Shown here one piece after another: positions 4,834-9,113 of a stretch of 64,000 nt of DNA. The notes beneath the pieces were generated by a model. The model did not search any database. It was not told where the DNA came from and saw nothing but the letters and a program-made list of their open reading frames with translations. The first letter of the stretch is position 1. Every line of letters begins with the position of its first letter. A program made the translations under genes and the position numbers. Source of the DNA: an uncultured Rhodobiaceae bacterium (GTDB taxonomy: Bacteria > Pseudomonadota > Alphaproteobacteria > RS24); the NCBI GenBank assembly GCA_937876775.1, contig CALEFA010000070.1, positions 186,001 through 250,000 on the forward strand, in the 5' to 3' direction.

Positions 4834-4991
4834 TGCACTCTCCCTTTGCATCTTATCTTAGAAAAATAAGCTGTGCTCGCAAGCTTATAGTTGGGCGGCT
4901 ATGAAAAAATTTTGCTTTTGCGACAATCCGCCCTTGTTCTCGACGCATGAATGTCATTAAACTTTAACCTAAGGTAGTGGAGGAGAGTAAA

Positions 4992-7253
4992 ATGGCACAT
5001 CCATCTTTTAATCGTAAGCAGGCGACGACAATTAATGTCGTTGCGCTTGGCATAATTTCGTTAATGGTTCTGATTGGCCTGTCGCCGTCAGAGCAAACAT
5101 CATCAAGCCAAGCGCCCGAAACCGGTGCCACGGCGAGTGAGACATTGGGTCAAATCGACACCACACGCATTGTAAATGCAGATGCCGCGCCGGGCGATTG
5201 GTTGGCTTATGGTCGCGACTATCGCGAACAGCGTTTTTCGCCCCTGACGCAAATCAATAAAGACAGTATTGATGAGCTGGAACTGGCTTGGTCGTTTGAC
5301 ATGTTGACCACGCGCGGTCTTGAGGCATCGCCAATTGTCGCTGACGGGGTGATGTATATGACCGGCTCATGGAGCGTGGTTTATGCGGTTGATGCTAAAA
5401 CCGGTGAAGAGCTGTGGTCTTATGACCCAGAAGTGCCCGGCGATTGGGCCCGCAAAGCCTGTTGTGACGTCGTTAATCGCGGCGTTGCCGTCTATGATGG
5501 TGCGGTTTATGTCGCCAGCCTTGATGGTTATTTGATTGCTTTGAATGCCCAAACCGGTGATGTGATTTGGCGCAAAAATACGATTATTGATCGCTCACGC
5601 GCTTATACAATTACCGGCGCGCCGCGTGTTGCCAATGGTCGCGTGTTCATCGGCAATGGCGGCGGTGAATATGGTGTGCGTGGTTATGTGACCGCCTATG
5701 ACGCCAAAACTGGCGAGCAAGACTGGCGCTTCTATACCGTGCCGGGTGATCCATCCAAACCATTTGAGCATCCTGAAATGGAAGAAGCTGCCGCCACTTG
5801 GAAAGGTGGCGAGTGGTGGAAAATCGGCGGTGGTGGCACCGTTTGGAATTCTATCGTCTATGACCCAGATACGGATACGGTGTTTTTAGGCGTCGGCAAT
5901 GGCTCGCCTTGGACACGTTCAATTCGCTCTCCGGGCGGTGGTGATAATTTATTCTTATCCTCTATTGTGGCGCTTGATCCCAATACGGGCCGTAAGAAAT
6001 GGCATTATCAAACAACCCCGGGCGACACATGGGACTACACAGCCGTACAAGACATGATGTTGGCCGATATGGAAATCGACGGCAAACAGCGCAAAGTGAT
6101 TATGCAAGCCCCGAAAAATGGCTTCTTCTATGTGCTGGATCGCGCCACGGGTGAATTATTGCGCGCCAATCCATATGTCGCGGTAAACTGGGCCAGTCAT
6201 ATTGATATGGCTACTGGCCGTCCGGTGGAAGTCGCTGAACGCGATTGGAACAGTGGCAAAAAGTCAGCCTGGATTTTGCCTGGCCCGCTCGGTGGTCACA
6301 ATTGGCAGGCCATGTCGTTTAACCCAGACACTGGTCTGGTTTATATTCCGGCCATGGAAAGCCCGCTGGTCTATGACGTTGATCATGATTTCAAAGCCAC
6401 GGGTCGTTATAAATATATTGAAGGTGGCTGGAACACCGGTATTGAATTTGGCCGGTTGCTCGAAATCATGGGCGATCATCCGGATATGCCACCAGCCAAG
6501 GGCTATATCACGGCTTTTGACCCGCTGACTGGTAAAACCCATTGGGTCAAAGAACACGGCACCCATTGGAATGGTGGCACGCTATCAACGGCGGCTGGCC
6601 TTGTTTTCCAAGGCAATGGCGATGGCTTCATTGTTGCCTATGACGCCACAACCGGTGCTGAAGTCTGGAAAGTGAATACATACACCAGCATTATTGCGCC
6701 GCCGGTCACCTATATGGTTGATGGCGAGCAATATATTGCCATCCAAGTTGGTTCTGGTGGTGCCGCTGGCCTCACTGAGGGTGATGCGGCAACGCCGGCC
6801 TCTGCCCAATATGGTAACTTCGGACGCCTTGTTGCCTTTAAGCTGAATGGTGGTTTGTCGATTGAGGAGCCAGAGACTTGGGCACGGGAAATTCCTGAGC
6901 CACCGGTGATCAATGCCTCAGCCGAGCAAATTGACCGCGGTATGGAAAAATACAGTGAAGTCTGCGCCTTCTGCCACGGCATTGCTGCTTACGGCGGGGC
7001 AGTGGTACCAGATCTGCGCAAAATGAGCCCGCAAACTCACCGCATGTTCAAAGAGATCGTGCTTGAGGGTCTGTTAGTAGATCGCGGCATGTCAAACTTC
7101 TCTGACCGTTTTAACGAGCAAGATGTTGAAGATGTTTACGCCTTCATCAATGCCCGTGCTTGGCAAGATTATACCCTGCAAGAAGACGCTAAAAAAGCGG
7201 CGAAGGGCGACAAGACAAGTGCTCTTACGGATAGTGAGCCAGCGGCGCGCTAA
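4992..7253 (+). CDS. PQQ-dependent alcohol dehydrogenase with C-terminal cytochrome c (quinohemoprotein)
   Basis: This 753-residue protein starts with a membrane anchor or signal (about residues 15-32), followed by an eight-bladed PQQ propeller and a cytochrome c domain with CAFCHG (about 658-662) and a likely Met ligand in RGMSNF. The vicinal Cys pair ACCD (157-158), the metal ligands Glu226 and Asn303 (GNGSPW), and catalytic Asp348 in TWDYTA are present. The residue two after the Asp is Thr, not the Asp of lanthanide enzymes, so Ca2+ is expected. It should oxidise alcohols in the periplasm and pass electrons via heme. ATG 4992 follows GGAGGAGAG; the GTG at 4977 lacks a site. No pqq genes are in the window. 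Confidence 0.92.
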   Translation: MAHPSFNRKQATTINVVALGIISLMVLIGLSPSEQTSSSQAPETGATASETLGQIDTTRIVNADAAPGDWLAYGRDYREQRFSPLTQINKDSIDELELAWSFDMLTTRGLEASPIVADGVMYMTGSWSVVYAVDAKTGEELWSYDPEVPGDWARKACCDVVNRGVAVYDGAVYVASLDGYLIALNAQTGDVIWRKNTIIDRSRAYTITGAPRVANGRVFIGNGGGEYGVRGYVTAYDAKTGEQDWRFYTVPGDPSKPFEHPEMEEAAATWKGGEWWKIGGGGTVWNSIVYDPDTDTVFLGVGNGSPWTRSIRSPGGGDNLFLSSIVALDPNTGRKKWHYQTTPGDTWDYTAVQDMMLADMEIDGKQRKVIMQAPKNGFFYVLDRATGELLRANPYVAVNWASHIDMATGRPVEVAERDWNSGKKSAWILPGPLGGHNWQAMSFNPDTGLVYIPAMESPLVYDVDHDFKATGRYKYIEGGWNTGIEFGRLLEIMGDHPDMPPAKGYITAFDPLTGKTHWVKEHGTHWNGGTLSTAAGLVFQGNGDGFIVAYDATTGAEVWKVNTYTSIIAPPVTYMVDGEQYIAIQVGSGGAAGLTEGDAATPASAQYGNFGRLVAFKLNGGLSIEEPETWAREIPEPPVINASAEQIDRGMEKYSEVCAFCHGIAAYGGAVVPDLRKMSPQTHRMFKEIVLEGLLVDRGMSNFSDRFNEQDVEDVYAFINARAWQDYTLQEDAKKAAKGDKTSALTDSEPAAR

Positions 7254-7807
7254 TTGGCAGACTTTGGCGGCAAGCTCGGTGATGGCAATTCTCTGAATTC
7301 CAGTTTGAGCCGGTCTTTATCGCCTTCAGAATCGGGACGGCTTTTTTCGCCGTCCCTTTTTTGTGACTGTTGCTCTTCGTCTGGATTGGCTGCCTTATAA
7401 CTCAAATTACCTTCCAAAGGCTTGCCATTATCGACCTCGTTCAGTGCCTCATCAACTTGCTCGGCCAATTCTGGCGAAAACGGCAATTGATAAAGCCGGG
7501 GGCGAGACATCAGCGCGCCATGTTCTGATAAGGGTTGCGCCAGAATATAAATCGCGCCCTCGGTTTTTTGCGCCTTATCCGGCTCTTCAACCACCGCCCA
7601 GTGCAGTTTGAACGGATTGGGCGGGGTTTGGGCAATAGCCCAGCCACGCAATTCCTGCGTGCCCTCATAGGCGGCAAAATATAGCAAAGTCACCAAGCCA
7701 ATGGCGGCCAGCTTAATTTCCTGACGCCAAGATGAGTTGAGATTGAGGTTAAGCAGCAAGGCTGCCAATAGCGCATAGGCGACGCCCAGCATCAGAGGAA
7801 TGGTCAT
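7250..7807 (-). CDS. Unknown membrane protein, third gene of TolQ/TolR-like trio
   Basis: This 185-residue protein is not recognised. Two hydrophobic helices occupy about residues 3-20 and 33-47, followed by a region with a possible small folded part (HWAVVEEPDKAQKTEGAIYILAQ) and a charged, low-complexity C-terminus rich in D, E, K, S and P (last 50 residues) that is probably disordered. Its ATG overlaps the stop of the upstream TolR-like gene by four bases (ATGA), so it is part of the same translational unit. Its stop shares the tetramer CTAA with the convergent PQQ dehydrogenase stop. Function is unknown; a role in the putative TolQ/TolR-like complex is inferred from coupling only. Confidence 0.7.
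   Translation of the reverse strand: MTIPLMLGVAYALLAALLLNLNLNSSWRQEIKLAAIGLVTLLYFAAYEGTQELRGWAIAQTPPNPFKLHWAVVEEPDKAQKTEGAIYILAQPLSEHGALMSRPRLYQLPFSPELAEQVDEALNEVDNGKPLEGNLSYKAANPDEEQQSQKRDGEKSRPDSEGDKDRLKLEFRELPSPSLPPKSAN
7334..7362 (+). terminator. Intrinsic terminator for the PQQ dehydrogenase, inside the opposing gene
   Basis: A perfect 8-bp stem GGGACGGC / GCCGTCCC with a 7-base loop is followed by TTTTTT. It lies 80 bases past the dehydrogenase stop and within the coding sequence of the leftward gene 7250-7807. Read on the other strand it has no downstream T tract, so it should act only rightward. Confidence 0.8.
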
Positions 7808-8439
7808 TGGCCACCTGCCTTTTGTTGCGCGACCGGATTGGCGCGGATGAGCAATTTATTGCGCCGCGCCATTTCCACCACATTGCCAGCCGCATCGAGA
7901 CGAAAACGGATGGCGGTTTGTTCGTCACCGGCGCCGGTGAGTGTGTTGCTGCCAGCGTAAATCAGCGTCACTTGTGGGTTGAGTTTTTCAACCTTCACCT
8001 TGACCTCCACCGGACGGGCGGTGGGCGCCTTATAGTGCAATAGGTTAACCACATACTCGCCGGCCGCAATGCCACGCAGCGTCACAATTTCCTGGTTCAG
8101 CGGATTGTCAATGCGTTGACCATTGACGGTAATATTATCACCAAGCGCGCCGCGGTCGTCGCGGTCTAGGTGCATGAGCCCAGATTCGCGCGTGTCAAAC
8201 CAAACGAGATTGCCTTCGCCATCCTCAACAATCAGATCGACATCATCGGTGTGCCCATCTGGCCATTGGGCGGTAATCATAAATTCGGCTTTGGGTGAAA
8301 TTTTGCCATCAGGAATTTGCGGCCGAATAAGAATAAAGGCGACAAAAAACATGAAGGCAAAACCAAGCAACGCATTGAACAAAATATCGGTAAAAGCGTT
8401 TTGGTCTTCGGCCGGTGGTTGCAGGCGGCGTCCGATCAT
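7804..8439 (-). CDS. TolR/ExbD-like single-pass protein with DUF2135-like periplasmic domain
   Basis: This 211-residue protein has one N-terminal membrane helix (about residues 16-43) introduced by FTDILFN. Asp18 sits where TolR, ExbD and MotB carry their essential proton-channel aspartate. The rest should be periplasmic: DDVDLIVEDGEGN followed by LDRDDRGALGDN resembles the acidic beta-sandwich pattern of DUF2135/YfaP-like domains, which suggests a metal-bound beta-sandwich rather than the usual ExbD/TolR domain. It overlaps both neighbours by four bases. The topology and Asp are read directly; the DUF2135 resemblance and motor role are inference. Confidence 0.65.
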   Translation of the reverse strand: MIGRRLQPPAEDQNAFTDILFNALLGFAFMFFVAFILIRPQIPDGKISPKAEFMITAQWPDGHTDDVDLIVEDGEGNLVWFDTRESGLMHLDRDDRGALGDNITVNGQRIDNPLNQEIVTLRGIAAGEYVVNLLHYKAPTARPVEVKVKVEKLNPQVTLIYAGSNTLTGAGDEQTAIRFRLDAAGNVVEMARRNKLLIRANPVAQQKAGGQ

Positions 8440-9113
8440 AGCGCTTCTTGCTCACTCATCCGCAGAAGGAGGTGTTGCATGGAATCGGCCAGAAACTGAA
8501 ATTGCAGGCGCAGCAATAAATTACAAACCAGACCGGTTAGTGTGGTGTAAAGCGCCACCGCCATACCGCCACTCATTTGGCCGAGGGCTGTTTGCAGACT
8601 GGCTGGTTCAAAACTTTGCATGCTGGCGATCGGGGCTAGCATTAAAATAAAGCCGATAATCGTCCCCAAAAGGCCGAGTTTGAGCACCGCATCGGCGGCA
8701 AACCAGCCATGGTTCAGCCACCGGGCTAAAATGGTTTCAGTGATGTCGATGGATTGGCCATGCCAATCGCCAAGGTCGCGGTTTTTTCTTTGCATCCAAA
8801 GCAGCAGGTGCAGCCAGCGCGCGCTCATGACCAGCCAAATACCAATAATGCCCCAAGAAATGCGGCTATTGTCACCCTCCAGTAACAGCGCCACAAGGCC
8901 ACGCTCATATAAAAGATAGATACCAAATACGATGAGACCTAATAAAATAAGCCCCTGCATGAATGATTTATTGGCGTTCAAATGCGTTTCGACCACGATA
9001 ACTCCCCCCGCGAAAACTGGCGCCAGTTTAAGCAAGCCAAGCGAGAGTGTCGACCCCAAGAGCCGTAAATTAACCGCTCTCCGGTCTGCCAAATTGCTTG
9101 CAAAGAAAGCCAT
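8436..9113 (-). CDS. MotA/TolQ/ExbB-family proton channel-like protein
   Basis: This 225-residue protein has about five hydrophobic segments. The C-terminal part follows the MotA/TolQ/ExbB pattern: GLLGTIIGFILML, then GGMAVALYTTLTGLVCNLLLRLQFQFLA, with the conserved Thr and Gly of the pore helix. The N-terminal half has two extra helices and is unlike ordinary TolQ. These proteins assemble pentamers around a TolR/ExbD/MotB dimer and convert ion flow into rotation. It is the first gene of a three-gene unit with ATGA overlaps. Only 34 bases separate it from the divergent MFS gene. No tolA, tolB, pal or tonB accompanies it, so the partner is unknown. Confidence 0.75.
   Translation of the reverse strand: MAFFASNLADRRAVNLRLLGSTLSLGLLKLAPVFAGGVIVVETHLNANKSFMQGLILLGLIVFGIYLLYERGLVALLLEGDNSRISWGIIGIWLVMSARWLHLLLWMQRKNRDLGDWHGQSIDITETILARWLNHGWFAADAVLKLGLLGTIIGFILMLAPIASMQSFEPASLQTALGQMSGGMAVALYTTLTGLVCNLLLRLQFQFLADSMQHLLLRMSEQEAL

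Follow-up and report, generated by a model that had tools for sequence, protein, structure and literature searches.

A three-gene operon in a Rhodobiaceae contig

We examined a compact run of three genes, here called A, B and C, in a 64,000-nucleotide stretch of contig CALEFA010000070.1 (positions 186,001 to 250,000; assembly GCA_937876775.1, an uncultured Rhodobiaceae bacterium), referred to below as the window. As first called, the genes are leftward open reading frames (ORFs) at 8436-9113 (A), 7804-8439 (B), and 7250-7807 (C). An earlier note on this DNA, made from the letters alone, had described the three frames as joined by ATGA overlaps, and this reading was correct: A and B share the four bases at 8436-8439 and B and C those at 7804-7807, an arrangement also present in the window's near relatives.

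The start that the same note gave to gene A, ATG 9113, had to be revised. Codon-position changes relative to the closest relative, L048, were compared on either side of GTG 8996. The 39 codons from ATG 9113 to GTG 8996 carried 8, 5, and 5 changes at their first, second, and third positions (12 codons nonsynonymous, 2 synonymous), whereas the 187 codons from GTG 8996 carried 15, 6, and 59 (49 synonymous, 17 nonsynonymous), the signature of a gene under purifying selection. Because third-position bias is missing upstream and strong downstream, we place the start at GTG 8996, which gives a protein of 186 amino acids (aa). A Shine-Dalgarno-like ggggggag lies at 9009-9002, five bases ahead of this codon, and most homologs lack the 39-codon upstream frame.

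Protein A combines a four-helix topology with conserved pore residues

Protein A matches the Pfam family MotA_ExbB (PF01618; E = 6.5e-9; 36.1 bits versus a curated cutoff of 22.9), in agreement with the MotA/TolQ/ExbB pore pattern first read from its sequence. The "two extra helices" claimed for it proved to be one: A has four transmembrane (TM) segments (residues 11-29, 50-68, 103-121, and 144-162 of the 186-aa protein), as does MotA, compared to three in the corresponding TolQ/ExbB subunits. The spacing between TM2 and TM3 is about 34 residues. The best structural matches of a profile built from 28 homologs were MotA/PomA proteins (8gqy, E = 3.9e-5; 8brd, E = 5.7e-4).

Twelve columns are invariant among the 28 bacterial A proteins (225-aa numbering), including Asp81 in the TM1-TM2 loop, G147, G150, T151, and G154 in TM3, and A187, T190, and T191 in TM4. 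The TM3 and TM4 residues align with PomA G154, G157, T158, G161, A182, T185, and T186. MotAB/PomAB stators (8brd, 8bri, 8gqy) are the best solved relatives of A and share with the trio the four TM helices, the TM3 pattern G-xx-GT-xx-G, the TM4 pattern A-xx-TT, and an aspartate in the TM helix of the B subunit. MotAB stators differ in the large domain that generates torque in the cytoplasm and is inserted between TM2 and TM3, where trio A has only a short loop, and in the TM3 proline and the OmpA-type peptidoglycan-binding domain, which trio A and B, respectively, lack; the trio also has a third protein and forms a separate branch. TolQR and ExbBD share the superfamily, the operon order A then B, and a third periplasmic-facing partner in the operon; by sequence, the third protein of the trio does not resemble TolA or TonB. 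In TM4, however, TolQ and ExbB read GIAEAL-AT, mostly with alanine at the position of T185, whereas most bacterial trio A proteins are of the GMxxAL-TT type; nearly all sampled TolQ/ExbB proteins also have a proline before the TM3 motif that trio A lacks.

Three threonines are reported to be conserved in sodium-driven stators (PMC10374538), and this triad is present in all 28 aligned bacterial A proteins. We considered a claim of sodium coupling on this ground and rejected it: among 16 other A-type proteins sampled, 11 (most of them MotA/PomA-like) carry the triad as well, as do some ExbB-like ones; its first threonine is replaced by lysine in one bacterial trio group of three loci, and several Rhizobium phage copies lack it. 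We regard it as compatible with Na+ and not as evidence for Na+. The three lysine-bearing loci (L103, L104, and L105, all of family f127) read GLLGKVIG at the first pore threonine, an odd residue in a supposed cation path.

Protein B carries a DUF2135-like head

Protein B has a single TM helix followed by a beta-rich domain in its AlphaFold2 (AF2) model (predicted local distance difference test [pLDDT] 70). Phe16 and Asp18 in the helix, the latter already singled out in the earlier note, are invariant in 31 bacterial homologs, and the same 31 of 31 sequences keep each of the 11 head residues listed in Table 1. Among 78 viral B sequences, W59, D66, D68, L91, D94, D95, G97, E117, R122, and G127 each occur in 77 to 78, while position 93 is arginine in 61 and lysine in 17. 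The motif W-D-D-RDD-E-R-G is nearly invariant in bacteria and phages alike, and its acidic set (D66, D68, D94, D95, and E117) hints at a binding site for a metal or a partner.

The head had been said to recall DUF2135 rather than the TolR/ExbD fold, and profile comparisons agree. In hhalign, the B profile matched DUF2135 with a probability of 96% (P = 4.2e-9; reverse direction, 96.3%, P = 1.9e-9), compared to a top score of 1.3% for 25 decoy families drawn from trio neighborhoods and 0.1% against 25 ExbD proteins. Pfam gave no ExbD match, and an OmpA-type domain was not found at E values up to 10. One genomic DUF2135 protein is hit at the same place from both sides, independently: with the B profile at E = 1.9e-5 and with the DUF2135 model at E = 7.7e-10. 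The Pfam model of DUF2135, PF09906, is matched weakly by 7 of 31 B homologs (best E = 0.0012, all under the Pfam cutoff). DUF2135 proteins, such as the C-terminal part of VIT-domain proteins, share with B the pattern W-x(6-7)-D-x-DLxV ... D ... E ... GxYxV; B differs in an extra stretch before N-x-E, and none of the DUF2135 proteins encountered here is joined to a MotB-type helix. Taken together, these profile matches show kinship between the predicted periplasmic part of B and DUF2135. The Mag complex (PMC5764988), whose Mag proteins may or may not carry the domain, was considered as a lead to the ligands of DUF2135 and does not count as evidence here. The genomic DUF2135 protein recognized by the B profile is 1118 aa long, with VIT and DUF2135 domains (L111, 3083-6436).

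Protein C has a predicted domain and a conserved tail

Searches of Pfam, NCBIfam, PADLOC, and PHROGs yielded no name for B or C. Protein C had been described as two helices with a disordered, charged tail. The helices and the charged tail stand, but there is more to the protein than a tail: in its AF2 model a domain spans about residues 66-137, a low-confidence stretch covers 139-165, and the protein ends in a conserved FxxLPxxxLPxK, to which the tails of many viral C proteins are related. To judge from the positive charges between its two helices, C probably has its C-terminal part in the periplasm. Gene C meets a convergent gene for a pyrroloquinoline quinone (PQQ)-dependent dehydrogenase-like protein (4977-7253, + strand) in a four-base overlap at the stop codons (7250-7253).

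Table 1. Features of the A-B-C locus in window coordinates
Feature	Position	Strand	Evidence
Gene A: 186 aa, four-TM MotA/TolQ/ExbB-type, start GTG 8996	8436..8996	-	PF01618 E 6.5e-9; codon-position changes
Gene B: 211 aa, single TM helix and DUF2135-like periplasmic domain, in the MotB/ExbD position	7804..8439	-	
Gene C: 185 aa, two TM helices plus probably periplasmic domain	7250..7807	-	
A signature D-x-[ST]-x-[hydrophobic], TM1-TM2 loop (Asp81, 225-aa numbering)	8856..8873	-	Asp81 in 28/28 bacterial, pattern in 72/76 viral A
A TM3 pore motif GLLGTIIG, aligned to PomA G154-G161	8652..8675	-	
A TM4 pore motif GMAVALYTTLTG, aligned to PomA A182, T185, T186	8532..8567	-	
B TM helix, residues 12-38, invariant Phe16 and Asp18 (Asp18 codon 8386-8388)	8326..8406	-	
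B DUF2135-like domain, about residues 51-152: W59, D66, D68, L91, R93, D94, D95, G97, E117, R122, G127	7984..8289	-	hhalign 96%, P 4.2e-9
C two TM helices, residues 3-24 and 29-54	7646..7801	-	AF2 model; hydropathy scan passed first only
C alpha/beta domain, residues 66-137	7397..7612	-	AF2 pLDDT about 80 over most; no PDB match E < 0.1
C conserved C-terminal tail FRELPSPSLPPK, ending P-x-K	7262..7297	-	P180 and K182 in 26/26 bacterial homologs
Open frame upstream of gene A, probably non-coding, contains Shine-Dalgarno-like ggggggag	8997..9113	-	Codon changes vs L048; most homologs lack frame

The trio is conserved together in bacteria

B was found in 29 of 97 relatives searched, in 22 of 150 genomes of one alphaproteobacterial family, and in 18 of 399 genomes that sample the phylum evenly. 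A and C lie beside it in bacterial loci wherever the contig permits (in L109, C was identified by reading ORFs), and only L033 has the gene order A-C-B. Carriers belong to the Alpha- and Gammaproteobacteria and include the PS1 clade/Rhodobiaceae, Oceanobacter kriegii, Granulosicoccaceae, and a Chromatiales symbiont; tblastn added Azospirillum plasmids to the carriers. Together with the phage loci described below, these occurrences dispose of a doubt raised in the earlier note, namely, that the three genes might not be conserved together. One genome, G529 (family f96), holds two copies of B on contigs C152 and C56.

In the window's family, the trio occupies a single syntenic place, flanked by syntenic, metabolic genes. 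No neighboring gene recurs beside it across bacterial families, and none travels with it in phages; we therefore dropped neighboring genes as a clue to function. The earlier report of no tol, ton, or flagellar gene nearby holds insofar as none was recognized from ORFs and clusters within about 13 kb of the trio, a span in which not every ORF was scanned, and tolA, tolB, pal, and tonB were not recognized in the window or in related loci. Elsewhere in the window genome, two MotA_ExbB matches adjoin an ExbD-type gene (G000:C8, about 5048-6395), and there is also a TolQ-type gene (C70:113218) followed by an ExbD-type gene.

Phages carry the complete trio

In IMG/VR, the B profile picked out 72 contigs, not all of them verified as viral; in 68 of the 72, A is followed by B and then by C. 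Position -1 is occupied by A in 73 of the viral loci and position +1 by C in 70, while other neighbors vary. One group of contigs runs scaffold, major head, two genes, A, B, C, helicase, and late sigma factor, with a head protein nearest those of phages of Methylophilales and Pelagibacter; in other viral contigs the trio adjoins terminase, DNA polymerase, or portal genes. An annotated phage collection added B in 27 Rhizobium/Sinorhizobium phage records. Six of these loci were read (16-3, N34, P10VF, N3_13, I1_18, and TM3_3_14B): A was present in 6/6 and C in 5/6 (weakest match, E = 0.0064), B was annotated as hypothetical in all six (p040 in 16-3, where A is p038 and C is p042), and small genes intervene within the trio in 16-3 and TM3_3_14B. 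In RHph_TM3_3_14B, a gene for a Seg-like homing endonuclease lies between A and B (L271, 7225-7983), and a trypsin-like peptidase gene is found near the trio in 16-3, RHph_N3_13, and RHph_TM3_3_14B (L266, 6244-7143; L269, 10564-11256; L271, 6093-6803).

In the six annotated loci, the trio lies amid replication, transcription, or hypothetical genes and outside the lysis cassette, a setting that points tentatively to a function in the course of infection and not in the lysis step itself. It bears in particular on whether the trio might be a non-rotating ion or membrane-potential channel, in which a minimal A ring plugged by B would open on a signal and time phage lysis. Phage A proteins are very small (median, 163 aa), with hardly any cytoplasmic part, and the DUF2135-like head could be a sensor, as such a channel might have. 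Given the position away from the lysis cassette and the strongly conserved periplasmic acidic motif, which suggests a defined ligand or partner, we consider this explanation improbable.

The phage context also invites comparison with Zorya, whose ZorAB proteins are likewise a MotA/MotB-type pair outside motility. A device of this kind, used against phages by bacteria or against superinfecting phages by phages, would sense disturbance of the envelope and block infection. It would fit the place of the trio among early phage genes, the patchy spread (18/399 genomes), and weak matches of A to ZorA models. These matches (10-16 bits), however, fall far under the NCBIfam curated cutoffs, and the trio lacks the long cytoplasmic tail; no ZorC-, ZorD-, or ZorE-like effector gene was recognized adjoining the trio and no defense island was recognized, while near relatives hold the trio at one place amid metabolic genes. 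An exclusion function of this type therefore appears rather unlikely, albeit the strongest of the alternatives that we weighed.

Bacterial and viral copies are intermingled in phylogenies

In the tree of B, the window copy falls in a clade of 20 chromosomal sequences (Shimodaira-Hasegawa-like approximate likelihood ratio test [SH-aLRT], 98), which is nested among phage lineages. Phage 16-3 and further alphaproteobacteria belong to a second, mixed group. The starred branches of this unrooted tree, which does not give a direction, require a minimum of two switches between phages and bacteria, and B varies as widely among viruses as among bacteria. In the tree of A, bacterial and viral trio sequences lie on one side of a branch with a support of 85.7 (MotA/PomA, 99; TolQ/ExbB, 96), suggesting, though not decisively, that A is a third branch beside these two.

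These data allow us to weigh whether the trio is an ordinary bacterial ExbBD/TolQR variant, occasionally picked up by phages, that serves energized uptake or envelope upkeep in the manner of Ton or Tol. Such an origin would be consistent with the common superfamily, with the syntenic chromosomal copies in the window's family, and with the well-supported all-bacterial clade of B. B, however, has a head of another type than ExbD; A has neither the GIAEAL-type TM4 nor the TM3 proline of sampled TolQ/ExbB proteins and branches apart from them; no TonB, TolA, receptor, or Pal gene was recognized nearby; genuine ExbB/ExbD-type genes exist elsewhere in the window genome; and viral B diversity matches the bacterial in width. 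On these grounds, we judge an ExbBD/TolQR variant to be a poor fit and doubt that the trio is one.

A candidate ion-driven motor with a new output head

Ion-driven motors of the MotA/ExbB type are known in bacteria from flagella, nutrient uptake, division, gliding, and phage defense. We consider it probable on balance that the trio is a further, compact motor of this kind with a DUF2135-like output head, although we infer its assembly, ion flow, motion, and role. The earlier note had already proposed that ions drive the machine and that its output domain is new, a proposal that gains support from the pore residues that A retains in TM3 and TM4. In our model, A, B, and C would form one inner-membrane complex, with several copies of A (five by analogy) ringing the single helices of B (two by analogy). 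Ions passing between TM3/TM4 of A and Asp18 of B would drive relative rotation or a conformational stroke, and the output would be delivered by the DUF2135-like head in the periplasm, in the place of an ExbD or OmpA-type domain. C would flank the ring via its two helices, presenting a periplasmic domain and a flexible tail whose conserved terminal peptide is probably a docking site for a partner. With no other gene traveling along, the module would be self-sufficient. Since its neighbors in phages are replication, late-sigma, and head genes, the phage trio probably acts on the host envelope of the infected cell (e.g., by excluding superinfecting phages, controlling lysis, or sustaining an energized membrane), and chromosomal copies, including that of the window, would be its stably kept version.

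Several observations weigh against the motor model. The stoichiometry of the complex and its pore are drawn by analogy with known motors, and we know of no phenotype for the trio. Structure prediction, which the earlier note had proposed for the head of B, delivered the beta-rich domain, but the model is of moderate confidence and Foldseek returned no match to the PDB under E = 0.03. C has no known relative in Pfam or in a fold search of its AF2 model against the PDB, and it was not recognized in RHph_N3_13. Of the 78 viral B sequences, 71 retain Asp18 and seven rows have no aspartate at the aligned place, and A of N34, P10VF, N3_13, I1_18, and TM3_3_14B departs from the pore pattern; some viral copies may therefore not conduct or may be misaligned.

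Whatever their role, the phage copies, which lay beyond the reach of the earlier note, alter the context of the trio: a conserved three-gene version of the motor with a different output domain would reside in bacterial chromosomes and phage genomes alike and, to the extent that the open-access literature shows, would be the first motor of its kind reported from viruses. More speculatively, phages (T4-like marine and cultured Rhizobium phages) may encode their own complete ion-driven A5B2 + C motor with a DUF2135-like periplasmic head, a third branch of the superfamily that reworks the envelope of the infected cell, and the window copy may be a domesticated relative; we put this forward as a tentative possibility that could well prove wrong. 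The literature searched gave no description of the trio and no hit for DUF2135 or a phage-encoded MotA/ExbB motor, and as only open-access sources were covered, this absence is weak evidence of novelty. Because genetically tractable cultured phages carry the trio, 16-3 of Sinorhizobium meliloti included, its role is directly testable by deletion.

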